This document shows positions 5,739 through 57,907 of a stretch of 64,000 bases of DNA, piece after piece. The notes under the pieces are model-generated. The model was given only the letters and a program-made list of their open reading frames with translations. It had not been told where the DNA came from and ran no database searches. The position numbers and the translations under genes are program-made. How positions within the stretch are numbered: the stretch's first letter is position 1; each line of letters begins with the position of its first letter. Origin of the DNA: Prochlorococcus sp. MIT 1307 (lineage in GTDB: Bacteria; Cyanobacteriota; Cyanobacteriia; PCC-6307; Cyanobiaceae); assembly GCF_034092395.1 (NCBI RefSeq), contig NZ_CP139301.1:1054001-1118000 (forward strand), given 5' to 3'.

Positions 5739-8522
5739 ATGTCTTTTGAGACTCTCAGCAAAAATTCTATGCAGGGGAGCCTCACCTCAGAACCTGATTG
5801 TTTTAGTGATGAAGCCTGGAATTTATTATTAGCTGCTCAGTCCTTAGCAAAAAGATGGAGACATGGACATTTAGATGTTGAGCATCTACTTCAGGTCCTA
5901 TGCAGCGATCGTGCTTACATAAATTTTCTTGAAGCTTTACCAATTGATCATTCAGCGTTACTTGAACGCTTAGAAGGCTTTCTCGCAGAGCAGCCAATGT
6001 CGCGTGGAGAAAGCCTGATTATTGGTGATGACCTTGAAGATCTTCTTGAAAACGCAGATCATTTCCGGAATCGTTGGGGATCCCGATTAATAGAGGTTTC
6101 GCATATTCTCATAGCAATAGGACGGGATCAACGGATAGGCGCTCAATTGTTTGAGGAGCTCGGTCTGCCAAGTGAACTTCTTGAAGCGGAACTGCAACGT
6201 TCCCCAGTACCTGCTCTTCCTTACTTGGAACAATCAAAAAAACAATATGTAGCATCCAAGTCAATTTCAAAATCAGAAGCTAGAGATCAAAGGAATCAAA
6301 ACTCTTCCTCCGTTTCAAAATCTGAAAGAAGCGAAGAAGTCATAACTACAAGCCCTCAAGATTCTTTGCAAATAAAAGAAGAGCCAAAGGCACTTGAATC
6401 ATATGGACGAGACCTCACCTCAGCTGCTCAATTAGGACAATTAGATCCTGTAATTGGCAGAGATTCCGAGATAAAAAGCCTAATAAAGGTTCTATCTCGC
6501 AAAGGTAAAAACAATCCTGTTCTCATTGGAGCTCCAGGAGTAGGGAAAACAGCCATTGCCGAATTATTGGCGCAGCGAATCGTTGCTGATGAGGTTCCTG
6601 ACTCTCTAAAAGGTTTAAAACTAATTTCCCTTGACTTAGGAGCATTAATTGCTGGGGCCAAGTTTCGTGGTCAATTCGAAGAACGATTTCGTTCTGTCCT
6701 AGCAGAAGCCAGTCATCCTGATGCTGGCGTGGTGTTGTTCATGGATGAATTACATACTGTTTTTAGTACAGATCGTTCAAATGCAGATGCTGGAAGCTTG
6801 ATCAAACCATTTCTTGCTAGAGGCGACCTCCGTTGTATTGGAGCAACAACCCCTGAAAACTTTCGTAGAACTGTTGAAAAAGACCCTGCACTGAATCGAC
6901 AATTTCAACAAGTTCTTATCAAAGAACCAAATCTTGACTTGAGCATACAGATTCTTCGTGGTCTCAAAGAGCGATACGAACTTCATCACGGAGTGAAAAT
7001 TTCTGATGATGCAATAACAACTGCTAATCGATTAGCAGATCGCTACATAAGTGACCGATGCCTGCCTGATAAGGCAATCGATTTAATCGATGAAGCATCT
7101 GCCCAACTAAAAATAGAAATCACTTCTAAACCCCAAATCATTGAAGACGCAGAATCACAACTCAAAAACCTTGAACTTGAATTACTGGAAGCAGCAAAAG
7201 CACCTAAAGAAGAGCTGACAAGATTACAAAATGATCGAGCAATAGCCGCTAGTCATCTTCAGGAATTGACAGAGTATTGGCAATTAGAGCGTTCGCAATT
7301 AGATGAACTGAGAGACTTAGAGCAACAAAACGAAGAACTACTAGCCGCAATTGCCGATAAAGAAAGTATCGGCGATCTTGAGACAGCTGCTCGCCTGCAA
7401 TATGACCAACTGCACCAGTTGCAGCAACGAAGAAAAGATCTTGAAGATTCTCTTGCGGAAGCTCAATCATCTGGGAAAGCAATCATTCATGACCAAGTTG
7501 CAGCAGAGGATATTGCTGATGTTGTTGCCCGATGGACTGGCATACCTGTTCAAAGAGTCCTTGCAGGTGAAAGACAAAAACTTTTAAACCTAGAAAGTGA
7601 GTTAGGAGAGAGAGTTATTGGTCAAAAAGAAGCTGTGCAAGCCGTATCAGCTGCTATACGCAGAGCTCGAGCAGGAATGAAAGATCCTCGTCGTCCCGTT
7701 GGGTCATTTTTATTTCTAGGCCCAACAGGAGTAGGTAAAACAGAACTAGCAAAAACTCTTGCTGCTTCTCTATTCGATGAGGAAGAAGCGTTGGTCCGAC
7801 TAGATATGAGCGAGTTCATGGAACGGAATGCCGTAGCACGTCTTCTGGGCGCCCCTCCTGGATATGTGGGCTATGAAGAAGGTGGGCAACTCACGGAAGC
7901 AGTGAGTGATCGTCCTTATGCAGTTTTGCTTTTGGACGAGATTGAAAAAGCCCATCCAGATGTATTCAACTTGCTCCTTCAAGTTCTTGATGATGGTCGC
8001 CTTACAGATTCACAAGGCAGAACTGTCGACTTCCGGCACACTGTAATTGTTATGACAAGCAATCTTGCCAGTAGAGCAATCCTAGATACCGCAAAGCTAT
8101 CTAAAGAGCAAGGCAGTGGAACGAGAGAACTTGAGCAAAATCTAACCAAACAAATTGATGAAGCCCTAAGAAACAAATTTCGACCCGAATTTTTAAATCG
8201 CGTTGATGAAGTCATTAGATTCCGCCCACTAAAAACAACAGATCTTCAGCAAATAATTAGGCTCTACTTGAAAGATCTGACAAATCTTCTAGCGGAACAA
8301 GGTCTTGAATTACGAGTTGATCAATCAGCAATTGAAACTTTGGCATTACAAGGTTACGAGCCTGAATATGGAGCTCGCCCCTTAAGGCGTGTGTTAAGAC
8401 GACAACTTGAGAACCCTCTTGCAACGCAACTGCTGGAAGAACAATTCAAGGGTGTAAGTGCTATTCGCGTCCAAACTTCAAATAAAGATTCAGAATCACT
8501 GCAATTTTTTGCAGAAAATTAA
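5739..8522 (+). CDS. clpB2: ClpB-type AAA+ disaggregase, second-type paralogue
   Basis: 927 residues in Hsp100 order: N-domain (about 1-150), a long Ser/Lys/Glu-rich linker (about 165-215), AAA-1 with Walker A GAPGVGKT near 264 and Walker B FMDELHT, a coiled-coil middle domain (about 464-585), and AAA-2 with Walker A GPTGVGKT near 660, pore loop GYVGYEEGG, and sensor-2 GARPLRR. The middle domain and the lack of an IGF/IGL ClpP-docking loop mark it as ClpB, not ClpC. It deviates from canonical ClpB: the paired arginine finger of AAA-1 (ERRF) reads NRQF (Arg387, Gln388), the AAA-1 pore tyrosine is Phe (near 309), and the linker is long. Cyanobacterial ClpB2 fits; the role of such paralogues is poorly defined. 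Confidence 0.85.
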   Translation: MSFETLSKNSMQGSLTSEPDCFSDEAWNLLLAAQSLAKRWRHGHLDVEHLLQVLCSDRAYINFLEALPIDHSALLERLEGFLAEQPMSRGESLIIGDDLEDLLENADHFRNRWGSRLIEVSHILIAIGRDQRIGAQLFEELGLPSELLEAELQRSPVPALPYLEQSKKQYVASKSISKSEARDQRNQNSSSVSKSERSEEVITTSPQDSLQIKEEPKALESYGRDLTSAAQLGQLDPVIGRDSEIKSLIKVLSRKGKNNPVLIGAPGVGKTAIAELLAQRIVADEVPDSLKGLKLISLDLGALIAGAKFRGQFEERFRSVLAEASHPDAGVVLFMDELHTVFSTDRSNADAGSLIKPFLARGDLRCIGATTPENFRRTVEKDPALNRQFQQVLIKEPNLDLSIQILRGLKERYELHHGVKISDDAITTANRLADRYISDRCLPDKAIDLIDEASAQLKIEITSKPQIIEDAESQLKNLELELLEAAKAPKEELTRLQNDRAIAASHLQELTEYWQLERSQLDELRDLEQQNEELLAAIADKESIGDLETAARLQYDQLHQLQQRRKDLEDSLAEAQSSGKAIIHDQVAAEDIADVVARWTGIPVQRVLAGERQKLLNLESELGERVIGQKEAVQAVSAAIRRARAGMKDPRRPVGSFLFLGPTGVGKTELAKTLAASLFDEEEALVRLDMSEFMERNAVARLLGAPPGYVGYEEGGQLTEAVSDRPYAVLLLDEIEKAHPDVFNLLLQVLDDGRLTDSQGRTVDFRHTVIVMTSNLASRAILDTAKLSKEQGSGTRELEQNLTKQIDEALRNKFRPEFLNRVDEVIRFRPLKTTDLQQIIRLYLKDLTNLLAEQGLELRVDQSAIETLALQGYEPEYGARPLRRVLRRQLENPLATQLLEEQFKGVSAIRVQTSNKDSESLQFFAEN

Positions 8523-12116: not shown

Positions 12117-12160
12117 TCACTATTGAACTAAGTCAAGTCAATTAACTCCCTCTAACCCTT

Positions 12161-12198
12161 AATAAAAAAGCCGAACTTAGGAGTTCGGCTTTTTTATT
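12161..12198. terminator. intrinsic terminator after rplL
   Basis: A GC-rich stem GCCGAACT/AGTTCGGC (12170-12177 with 12182-12189, loop TAGG) is extended by AATAAAAAA pairing with TTTTTTATT, giving 17 paired bases in all. The T-run on the plus strand makes it a textbook Rho-independent terminator. The A-run means it could also work on the minus strand. Confidence 0.93.
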
Positions 12199-12590
12199 AA
12201 GCCTACAAACAAGCCCCTCAAAGGTTATGCAAATGCAAAATATTGAGGGATCTATCCTAAGTTTAAAACCTGAATATTACTTTAAGGGATACTCACAAAA
12301 GCGAATATATTTACCCATTTATTTCTAGTGGTCTTTATAAAACCTACTTCTATTCAACAAATATTAGGCCAGCCAAGGTCAAATAAAACTTGACTTTTAG
12401 AGTCACATAATATTCAAAGCCATTTCTTAGAGAGTTAAGTTTAAGAAGCTATTCTAAGAAAATTAAGACAGGTCTTAGCAGGATAAAAAGCATCATGCAG
12501 TAATAACTCGTTTTCAAACAACCTTCAAAGTTGATTTCTCAACATTAATAGACTATCAAAGGTCAAACCGTATCTAAACAAAATACTAAA
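12199..12590 (+). other. 392-base spacer before rnhA, little seen
   Basis: This AT-rich stretch holds no tRNA, strong hairpin or conserved gene that I recognise. One short open frame (12227-12328, 33 codons, ATG start, no well-spaced ribosome binding site) is at chance level. It presumably contains the rnhA promoter, but I could not choose a -10 box with confidence. Confidence 0.5.
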
Positions 12591-54180: not shown

Positions 54181-54206
54181 TGGATCGAAACAATAATTAG
54201 ATGGAA

Positions 54207-54250
54207 CGAAGACTTATCACCTCACTCCCAACACTATTAAGAAGTCTTCG
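54207..54250. promoter_or_regulatory. 9-bp inverted repeat between rhodanese gene and hrcA
   Basis: Arms CGAAGACTT (54207-54215) and AAGTCTTCG (54242-54250) are perfect complements separated by 26 bases. It is 27 bases before the hrcA start and nine bases beyond the rhodanese stop. It could end the upstream transcript or act as a regulatory site. The spacing is too long and the arms do not match CIRCE. Confidence 0.45.
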
Positions 54251-54258
54251 ATAACTAC

Positions 54259-54612
54259 TCAATAACGAGGAACATTGGGATCAACATTTACGCTCCAGGC
54301 ATCTATCCCCCCTTCAAGATTCCAAACTTCGTTTCCCCATCCTTGCTCTAACAGCCAAGTTGCAAAATTCCAACTACGCACACCTGAATGACATATCACC
54401 ACCACTGGTTGAGTTTTTCCTAGTCTCTCAGGTAATTCTTGAACCCATACAGACGCTTTACTTAAAGGCAAATGAATCACTTGAGAAGGGAAAGGAGCCA
54501 AAACTAATTCTTCATCCTCCCGAACATCTACCAACACCAAATTAGAAGCGTTTGTATTTAGCCAACTATGTAGCTTTTGAGGAGCAAGATTCTTGGGAAC
54601 GTGCTGAACCAT
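54259..54612 (-). CDS. rhodanese-domain sulfurtransferase-like protein
   Basis: 117 residues from the ATG at 54612 (MVQHVPKNLAPQKL); 19 extra codons upstream do not look conserved. A single rhodanese domain: VLVDVREDEELVLAPFP, HLPLS and the active Cys in VVICHSGVRSWNFATWLLEQGW, finishing NLEGGIDAWS. It may transfer sulfane sulfur or bind oxyanions. Upstream of hrcA on the same strand. Confidence 0.9.
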   Translation of the reverse strand: MVQHVPKNLAPQKLHSWLNTNASNLVLVDVREDEELVLAPFPSQVIHLPLSKASVWVQELPERLGKTQPVVVICHSGVRSWNFATWLLEQGWGNEVWNLEGGIDAWSVNVDPNVPRY

Positions 54613-54687
54613 TTGTCCATTGTCAGTCCAATAGGAATTCTGCTCGGTAATGGATAAAAATAGCCACAAGTGTCGTATCGCTAATCC

Positions 54688-56295
54688 ATGAAGGTTCGTC
54701 CCTTCCTACTTAGTTTGACGACTGCATTGGTGTTTCTGCAGTTCATAGTATTTGTCCCTGAGAGGGTTCTAGCCCTCTCAGGGACAAATCCAACTGAGAA
54801 TAATCAACTTGAACTGCCGAAAACAGCTAAATTTTTACCCCAAAATTCATCAGTATCTCTTCATTGGACAATAAAAGAAGAAAAGCTTCCTCAATACCTG
54901 CAATCAACTGAGCCTTTAGAGAAAAAGATAAGCGAAGCTCAAAAAATATCCAGAGAGTTAATAGAAAACTTATTTGCACTTGCAGGTCTAAATTTTTATT
55001 CTGATCTTTCAGAATGGATAGGGCCTGAAATCAGCTTTGCTTTTTTTGAAGCAAATGAAGATCATCAAGATTTTGACTGGGTAATGGCCATATCAAGTAG
55101 AAATGTTAGTGAGAGTAAGAACTTTCTACAGAGTTTTTGGCAAAAACAACGCTTAGACGGAATAGATTTAAATCTAAGTGAGTATAGGGGAGTTACTTTA
55201 ATTAGCGGTAATCAGACTTCAACTGTCAATAGCTACCAACCTGTATCTACAGCTTTAGTAAGTGATAACCTAATTGTCATCGCTTCAAAGAAATCAAGGC
55301 TAGAAGACTCTCTAAGTATTTCCCAATTACCCGGTCTAAATCAATTAGGCAATCAAACTCTAAAACAATCAATTAATCATCTTAATAATGGATTAGGCAT
55401 ACTAACAATTTCCCCAAAATCATTATATTCCTTATTCTCACTACCATTAAAAATAAGTGAGCGTGATGACTTTAATGGTTTTGTAGCGTCCTTTCAGGCT
55501 AATGAATCCTATATTGATATTAATGGATTTTTAGAATTTAAAAACCCTATTAAAAAACAAACACCTCAAAACAATGAGAACATCTCAACTCATAAAATCG
55601 CGGGGACATCAGAAGAAGTAGTCGCATTTTTTAATTCACCTTTAGATTTACTTAGCAAGTCAAGCAATGATCCTCTAAGTCAATTGATAGGTCCAATATT
55701 AGTAGCCAAGCTTCAATCTTTAGAAGGGGTTACAGCTAAAGCTATTATTACTTTTAATGAGGGCCCATTAATTTGGCTAAAAGAAGCCAAGGGTTGGGTC
55801 ATAGGGACCAAAAAAGGAAGTCCACCTATATCTCTTATTGATAAGCTACTCACGAAAGAGAATTATAAGAGGTCAGAGCTATTAATCAATAATAAAATCT
55901 TTCAAGTATGGTCAAAACTGGTCACCGAGCATGTCCAAGATGGTGACAAATTAAAAACTAAAATTGGCGCAATTTTATTGCAAGATTCTGATATTAATTG
56001 GTGGGGGGAGAACCTTTTTGCACTTCAGCAAAAAGAACAAACTGAATCAAGACTAAAGCAAGAAGAATCGGGAGAATTTCATCCAGAAGGCATGAATATG
56101 TCTGCAATGCAAATATCCTTAAATGCAATACAAGCGCAAGAACAACTAAATCAGTGGTATCCTTGGCAGCTTCTAAAAGTAATAGGAAGTGCTTCGATAA
56201 CTCCAAACATCCAGGGAATGGAAATTTCTATCAATACAGATTCGGAAAGAAATCCTAACAGCATCAATCTTAACACAAAGTTGGATATTAGTTAA
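54688..56295 (+). CDS. DUF3352-like exported protein, unknown function
   Basis: 535 residues. The N-terminus is a signal peptide or anchor (MKVRPFLLSLTTALVFLQFI, hydrophobic 6-27). After it comes LPKTAKFLPQNSSVSLHW, which resembles the DUF3352 proteins of cyanobacteria. The mature part is rich in Asn, Ser and Leu, without Cys; a probable periplasmic or lumen protein. The function is unknown. The first 35 codons contain a perfect 17-bp hairpin (54750-54789). Divergent from the rhodanese gene. ATG start. Confidence 0.8.
   Translation: MKVRPFLLSLTTALVFLQFIVFVPERVLALSGTNPTENNQLELPKTAKFLPQNSSVSLHWTIKEEKLPQYLQSTEPLEKKISEAQKISRELIENLFALAGLNFYSDLSEWIGPEISFAFFEANEDHQDFDWVMAISSRNVSESKNFLQSFWQKQRLDGIDLNLSEYRGVTLISGNQTSTVNSYQPVSTALVSDNLIVIASKKSRLEDSLSISQLPGLNQLGNQTLKQSINHLNNGLGILTISPKSLYSLFSLPLKISERDDFNGFVASFQANESYIDINGFLEFKNPIKKQTPQNNENISTHKIAGTSEEVVAFFNSPLDLLSKSSNDPLSQLIGPILVAKLQSLEGVTAKAIITFNEGPLIWLKEAKGWVIGTKKGSPPISLIDKLLTKENYKRSELLINNKIFQVWSKLVTEHVQDGDKLKTKIGAILLQDSDINWWGENLFALQQKEQTESRLKQEESGEFHPEGMNMSAMQISLNAIQAQEQLNQWYPWQLLKVIGSASITPNIQGMEISINTDSERNPNSINLNTKLDIS
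54750..54789. repeat. perfect 17-bp inverted repeat in the DUF3352 signal-peptide region
   Basis: Arms ATTTGTCCCTGAGAGGG (54750-54766) and CCCTCTCAGGGACAAAT (54773-54789) match exactly with a six-base loop (TTCTAG). The stem is unusually strong for this AT-rich genome. It lies in frame within codons about 21-34 and encodes the end of the signal peptide. No T-run follows on either strand, so it is not a standard terminator. Possible roles: attenuator, RNA stability element, protein-binding site or a palindromic repeat insertion. Confidence 0.9.
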
Positions 56296-56713
56296 TATTT
56301 ATGCTTGCACTAAGGTGAAATCCATTGAGCAGTTTTTATCTTTAGCTTTATATATAAACATCAGTTGGACTAGCTCCTTGAGAGAAGAACAAAAATCACT
56401 TTCATAATTAATATTTACTGAGCCAATGAAAATTCCTAAATTTCGCCCTTTTAAAAAAATGTGAAAGCTTTCCTTATTAAAGAGATTTAAATAATTTCTC
56501 TTATTTCAGTTCCTTTCAACTCATATGGTTTATTTCGGCACTTCTCCACTTCAAGTCAAGAGAGGTGGCTTCTATACCTAGTGATGGTTGCATCCATCTA
56601 AAATGAAAAAATAATTCTCAGACCTTCTTGAGCCATGCCTATAACAGCACTTATAGAACCAGTCTTCATTTAGCTCACATAATTTTCTTCATTGGCCCAT
56701 TATCTCTAAAGAT
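56296..56713 (+). other. 418-base spacer before gltA
   Basis: AT-rich spacer after DUF3352. It has a weak inverted repeat, AAGAGA (56480-56485) with TCTCTT (56497-56502), and a small GATGG/CCATC stem near 56583-56598. I saw no tRNA, rnpB, 6S or other known RNA, and no open frame that looks coding. It presumably has the gltA promoter, but no box could be assigned. A small RNA is possible given the length. Confidence 0.4.
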
Positions 56714-57907
56714 ATGCTTGCGGAGCAAAAAACAATAGATCAGCATCTCGACCCCATAACGATCGGATTGCGTCCAGGACTGGAAGGCGTACCAGTCACC
56801 CAGTCTGCAATTTGTGATATTGATGGCATCAAAGGAGAACTTAAATATCGCGGCTACCCTATTGCTGATCTTGCAGCTCAAAGCAGTTTTCTAGAAACTA
56901 CTTATTTACTGATTTGGGGAAATTTACCAAGTCCACAACAATTAAGGGATTTTGAACGAGAAGTTCAAATGCACAGGCGGGTGAGCTTTAGGGTCAGAGA
57001 CATGATGAAATGCTTCCCGGCTTCAGGACATCCTATGGATGCCCTGCAATCCTGCGCGGCATCACTTGGCCTGTTTTATTCCCGAAGAGCAATAGACAAC
57101 CCTCAATATGTCTATGACGCTGTGGTGAGGCTGATTGCCAAAATCCCAACTATGGTTGCAGCCTTTCAATTAATTCGAAAAGGGCAAGATCCAATTCAAC
57201 CTCGTGATGATCTTGCTTATTCGGCAAATTTCTTGTACATGCTCACAGAGCGCGAGCCAGACCCTCTTTCAGCAAGGATCTTTGATAGGTGTCTAATTCT
57301 GCATGCAGAACATAGTCTCAACGCCAGTACCTTTAGTGCACGAGTTACTGCAAGCACGCTGACTGACCCTTATGCCGTAGTCGCCTCTGCAGTAGGCACT
57401 CTCGCTGGCCCTCTTCATGGTGGTGCAAATGAAGATGTAATTAAAATGCTGGAAGATATTAGGCTCCCAGAAAATTCTTCCTCATATCTAGACAAAGCAA
57501 TTGCACATAAACAAAAAATCATGGGTTTTGGCCATCGTGAATACAAAGTAAAAGATCCGCGCGCCTCAATTCTTCAAGGACTTGCAGAAGAACTCTTCGC
57601 ACGATTTGGCAAGGATGAAATGTATGACGTTGCAAGAGCTCTCGAAAAAGAAGCTTCGAACCGTCTAGGTGCAAAAGGTATATATCCAAATGTTGACTTT
57701 TATTCTGGACTGGTTTATCGAAAACTTGGTATTCCTAGAGATCTTTTCACACCAGTATTTGCTATATCTCGAGTTGCTGGCTGGTTGGCTCATTGGCGTG
57801 AACAACTAGGTGCCAATCGAATTTTCAGGCCATCACAAATTTATACAGGTGTAAAAACAAGAAAATGGAAGCCGGCTGAAGAACGTTCTACTCCCGAAAA
57901 CTCCTAA
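56714..57907 (+). CDS. gltA: citrate synthase
   Basis: 397 residues, type I-like citrate synthase of the shorter (dimeric) type. Catalytic residues: His in LHAEHSLNASTF, His in MGFGHREYKVKDPR and Asp in NVDFYSGLVYRKLGIP. It condenses oxaloacetate with acetyl-CoA, leading to 2-oxoglutarate for nitrogen assimilation in this incomplete-TCA lineage. A 2-methylcitrate synthase is possible from sequence alone, but without prp genes citrate synthase is preferred. ndhA follows after 18 bases. Confidence 0.95.
   Translation: MLAEQKTIDQHLDPITIGLRPGLEGVPVTQSAICDIDGIKGELKYRGYPIADLAAQSSFLETTYLLIWGNLPSPQQLRDFEREVQMHRRVSFRVRDMMKCFPASGHPMDALQSCAASLGLFYSRRAIDNPQYVYDAVVRLIAKIPTMVAAFQLIRKGQDPIQPRDDLAYSANFLYMLTEREPDPLSARIFDRCLILHAEHSLNASTFSARVTASTLTDPYAVVASAVGTLAGPLHGGANEDVIKMLEDIRLPENSSSYLDKAIAHKQKIMGFGHREYKVKDPRASILQGLAEELFARFGKDEMYDVARALEKEASNRLGAKGIYPNVDFYSGLVYRKLGIPRDLFTPVFAISRVAGWLAHWREQLGANRIFRPSQIYTGVKTRKWKPAEERSTPENS

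Follow-up and report, generated by a model that had tools for sequence, protein, structure and literature searches.

Quasipalindrome-associated template-switch mutation has been established experimentally in E. coli (PMC7202029). At the E. coli thyA hotspot and in the lacZ quasipalindrome (QP) reporters, a perfect short-loop repeat is formed from an imperfect one (Ripley model; PMC7202029). Template-switch mutations make perfect stems in one step and also maintain them (PMC8794818), and in yeast, template switching has rewritten coding genes, with homogenisation of the two arms (PMC8604942). In prokaryotic coding sequence, an excess of short inverted repeats has been ascribed to sequence-directed mutagenesis (Ladoukakis and Eyre-Walker, 2008, as cited in PMC4060949).

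The locus described here, a perfect 17-bp hairpin within a DUF3352 gene of Prochlorococcus sp. MIT 1307, resembles these systems in several respects and is most likely a new, near-neutral instance of a known mutational process. It shares with the E. coli thyA and lacZ systems the perfect short-loop repeat, which here too may derive from an imperfect one, and with the QP reporters the setting of bacterial replication and a similar size (an 18-bp QP in the reporters), but the DUF3352 event is deduced from a finished genome together with two sister cases (PMC7202029). The presumed one-step formation of the perfect stem, together with the multinucleotide clusters, the amino-acid replacements in coding DNA and the compensatory changes that keep a stem, as read in the sister cases, are likewise features of the systems described in PMC8794818 and PMC8604942, from which the present case differs in that the DUF3352 gene is bacterial and in that ancestral reconstruction is impossible at this locus. 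As in the prokaryotic survey, an excess over expectation is found within protein-coding sequence, although that survey, as cited, counted repeats of 6–9 bp, whereas the excess reported here lies in the 12–20 bp tail (Ladoukakis and Eyre-Walker, 2008, in PMC4060949).

The hairpin-bearing gene (54688–56295, forward strand) lies in a 64,000-nucleotide stretch of DNA, analysed as a whole and called the window here, of a 2.03 Mb genome that is assembled as a single contig. It encodes an uncharacterised 535 aa protein with an N-terminal signal peptide and a DUF3352 domain (PF11832, Pfam E 1.4e-39); homologues are found across a family of small genomes, and a literature search found no paper mentioning DUF3352. 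Gene content of this kind suggests a picocyanobacterium. A repeat search identified a perfect inverted repeat at 54750–54789, with 17 of 17 bp paired and a 6-nt loop, so that the size of 17 bp and 40 bases and the position given by the original prediction are all correct, whereas its phrase 'rich in G and C' slightly overstates the composition (G or C at 9 of the 17 arm positions). The repeat occupies nucleotides 63–102 of the coding sequence (codons 21–34) and, as had been proposed, falls within the signal-peptide coding region, where it straddles the predicted signal-peptide end and the first mature residues. On the forward strand, the left arm (ATTTGTCCCTGAGAGGG; 54750–54766) runs from the end of codon 21 to the start of codon 27, the loop (TTCTAG; 54767–54772) encodes most of Val-Leu-Ala, the likely signal-peptidase-site residues −3 to −1, and the right arm (CCCTCTCAGGGACAAAT; 54773–54789) covers codons 29–34 at the start of the mature protein. 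The cleavage site was placed by an A-x-A-like motif that is aligned at codon 29 in homologues from the genus.

The DUF3352 hairpin is probably the recent, lineage-private product of a quasipalindrome-associated template switch in a tolerant signal-peptide region, most likely without a selected regulatory role. During replication, a short inverted repeat with imperfect arms around the signal-peptide cleavage codons would let the nascent strand fold back, and the polymerase would copy one arm from the other arm instead of from the template strand before switching back. Up to 17 nt would thereby be rewritten as a perfect reverse complement, with the length unchanged. The rewritten codons, which lie in the signal-peptide h- and c-regions and at the first residues of the mature protein, would be weakly constrained, and the change would therefore be tolerated. 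Template switching, an origin that the original prediction did not consider, is favoured because the arms are perfect, the loop is short, the length is constant, the hairpin is absent in relatives and present in single copy, and the site is tolerant.

A perfect unbroken stem is also expected from selection for structure. The predicted RNA fold of the 40-nt hairpin is very stable (−32.6 kcal/mol, z −10.2; about −20 kcal/mol when folded as DNA), and the hairpin is extended by an outer helix in which 54738–54745 (GCAGTTCA; forward strand, part of L17-Q18-F19-I20) pairs with 54810–54817 (TGAACTGC; forward strand, within the conserved L-E-L-P codons). On its left strand, this outer helix takes in the codon for a Gln that is unusual within the hydrophobic core, and the spacers between the outer and inner stems are asymmetric (4 and 20 nt). 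Since about 1% of cases would show an outer stem of at least 8 bp by chance, a second or wider event is possible, but the signs that the 8-bp helix belongs to one larger event are suggestive only. Stability, perfection, the position over the signal-peptide cleavage codons and the outer helix would all suit an early-coding mRNA hairpin that is selected for slowing translation or protecting the transcript, for example as a ribosome pause during signal-peptide recognition, or as an RNase barrier or processing site. However, such a role is quite unlikely: none of the 31 homologues that share this protein architecture has the hairpin, the genome carries similar hairpins in unrelated enzymes and at unrelated positions, and no Rfam family matches it. 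A translating ribosome is moreover expected to unwind such a hairpin.

The comparison with homologues bears on length as well as on pairing. The distance from the initiating Met to a conserved 'LP' is 44 residues in 31 of 32 homologues (the DUF3352 query included) and 47 in the remaining one, and since the palindrome occupies codons 21–34 of this constant-length N-terminus, it replaces homologous codons and adds none. No stem comparable to 17 bp is found among the 31 other homologues, in which the longest perfect stem of this region is 3–8 bp, and the fold z of the same stretch, which is −8.0 here, ranges in them from −3.7 to 1.6 and is near 0 except in two (−2.5, −3.7). These proteins are therefore kept without the pairing, the pattern that the original prediction had set against a functional hairpin for closely related strains and that is seen here at the distance of genus and family. 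A structure maintained by compensatory changes was not seen in the 31 homologues. The genus homologue L010 has, over these codons but shifted by one nucleotide, a short quasi-palindrome, GGAGT-N6-ACTCC, which may be a seed of the kind that template switching needs or may be due to chance.

Capture of a palindromic repeat, as suggested by the original prediction, would suit a perfect palindrome inside a coding region, on the model of a mobile REP/MITE-like or Rickettsia-palindromic-element-like insertion. This reading is largely refuted by the conservation of length (no extra residues relative to the 31 homologues) and by the single copy (no sequence elsewhere in the genome matches the arm with fewer than 3 mismatches), and its probability is close to nil. 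Elsewhere in the genus, no genome contained the palindrome core, nor did any viral contig, and its one match in 84,980 species genomes is an intergenic hairpin of an unrelated Pseudomonas, which is taken as chance convergence.

The position of the hairpin, 62 nt inside a gene whose start as listed is only 18 nt from that of a divergent rhodanese-domain ORF (54259–54669, reverse strand), could instead point to a transcription terminator or attenuator, or to a protein-binding operator serving the divergent pair. A stall of transcription at an intrinsic terminator, which had also been suggested, is not supported, with no T tract on either strand and no terminator-like site in 54200–56800. With the hairpin absent in relatives and the arm not repeated elsewhere in the genome, a terminator, attenuator or operator is very unlikely.

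The hairpin is also beyond chance. Hairpins with loops of 3–20 nt were counted in a sample of 800 kb of spaced genome stretches plus the window, comprising 697 kb of coding DNA. Four coding hairpins with arms of at least 15 bp were seen (20, 17, 15 and 15 bp, the second being the DUF3352 hairpin) and none in 10 synonymous-codon shuffles of the 697 kb, in agreement with the view that nothing in the coding need of the gene explains it. The same shuffling gave 0.3 expected against 13 seen for coding arms of at least 13 bp, and 1.1 against 21 for at least 12 bp; three Markov copies of 464 kb contained no hairpin of at least 14 bp. The statement that such a palindrome is very unlikely in this genome thus stands against a random model, but several other such hairpins occur inside and outside genes. 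The arm sequences of the coding hairpins are mostly unrelated, and none of the others has more than 6 nt in common with the DUF3352 arm. Part of the excess at 13 bp counts against template switching, being explained by protein sequence and synonymous drift: the 13-bp hairpins in two genes, presumably those of ATP sulfurylase and ppk, largely reflect conserved protein sequence with synonymous drift, so that among its shorter hairpins the excess is mixed.

The other long coding hairpins are informative on origin because two of them lie in better conserved genes, and in these the footprint is clearer. Clustered substitutions that make one arm the reverse complement of the other at constant length are the footprint of quasipalindrome template switching. 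At L060 11611–11654 (G000:C1 about 1211611–1211654), a perfect 20-bp hairpin with a 4-nt loop lies inside a gene that we take to encode an S9 prolyl-oligopeptidase-like protein. In relatives, a segment that varies (RAELAA, CPECPP, RPDLFA) precedes conserved QELTPxPxNL, whereas here the variable segment is SDSSG, coded by TCAGATTCATCGGGACAG, which is the reverse complement of the codons for the conserved P-x-N-L; the arms surround a GAGTTAACTC seed, itself a palindrome, that is given by the conserved E-L-T. This hairpin is a clean template-switch footprint.

The second case, at L073 12764–12802, is a perfect 15-bp hairpin in a presumably SGNH-hydrolase-like gene, and a hairpin is found at the same place in L162 of G005, a sister species of the genus. 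The right arm of L073 has GCG GCT, which completes the stem, in place of the GAA GCA or similar of most other relatives, so that the protein reads E-A-A-C in L073 and G005 and E-E-A/T-C in most relatives. G005 retains 15 of 15 pairs of the stem, a C-G pair having become T-A through a compensatory change that is synonymous. These observations bear also on whether the DUF3352 hairpin is a sequencing or assembly artefact, that is, a consensus into which a chimeric inverted read was joined. Artefacts in the form of palindromic joins are known, but neither the frame nor the length is disturbed over the 535 aa and a comparable hairpin, that of L073, is found independently in another species, making an artefact highly improbable.

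For the DUF3352 hairpin, we infer the same mechanism, a recent origin and near-neutrality. A genome-contig search for near strains carrying the DUF3352 protein found none, and because the closest homologue is only 41% identical, the source arm is not distinguished from the target arm and the event is not seen directly. Codon atypicality, which lies at the 8th percentile in each arm, does not point to one rewritten arm, and this equality counts against template switching. On balance, template switching remains the preferred origin, and the locus is a clear bacterial example of a striking, perfect intragenic hairpin that makes more sense as the trace of a mutation than as a regulatory element, a point of importance for genome scans in which hairpins are taken to be functional. 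The sister cases also suggest picocyanobacterial genomes as material for measuring template-switch rewriting of several codons at once.

The density of coding hairpins of at least 12 bp differs among relatives (none in 259 kb of G046 and 4 in 250 kb of G064, compared with 21 in 697 kb here), and a lineage-specific rate is therefore possible. A tentative and rather doubtful extension is that template switching forms palindromes unusually often in this lineage, so that long perfect coding hairpins accumulate and rewrite protein segments, such as the signal-peptide junction of the DUF3352 protein; if true, the lineage would document, in a free-living bacterium, how several codons of a protein can change naturally in a single step. 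An origin of the excess in the loss of hairpin-suppressing nucleases is not supported, since xseA is present above the cut-off; SbcD gave only a partial match, below the cut-off.

Non-coding DNA of the genome is richer still in perfect hairpins, which reach 32 bp. The intergenic hairpins at L065 1721–1790 and L055 18653–18716 are perfect over 32 and 30 bp, and their arms, A-rich on the 5′ side and T-rich on the 3′ side, are perhaps those of bidirectional terminators. Elsewhere in L065, perfect hairpins of 19 and 15 bp (6820–6866 and 7111–7152) lie less than 300 nt apart in DNA without an ORF of at least 80 aa. In the window itself, a perfect 20-bp hairpin at 12158–12201 with a T-rich final arm follows an ORF that we take to be rplL (ribosomal protein L7/L12), and it looks like an ordinary terminator, perhaps a bidirectional one.
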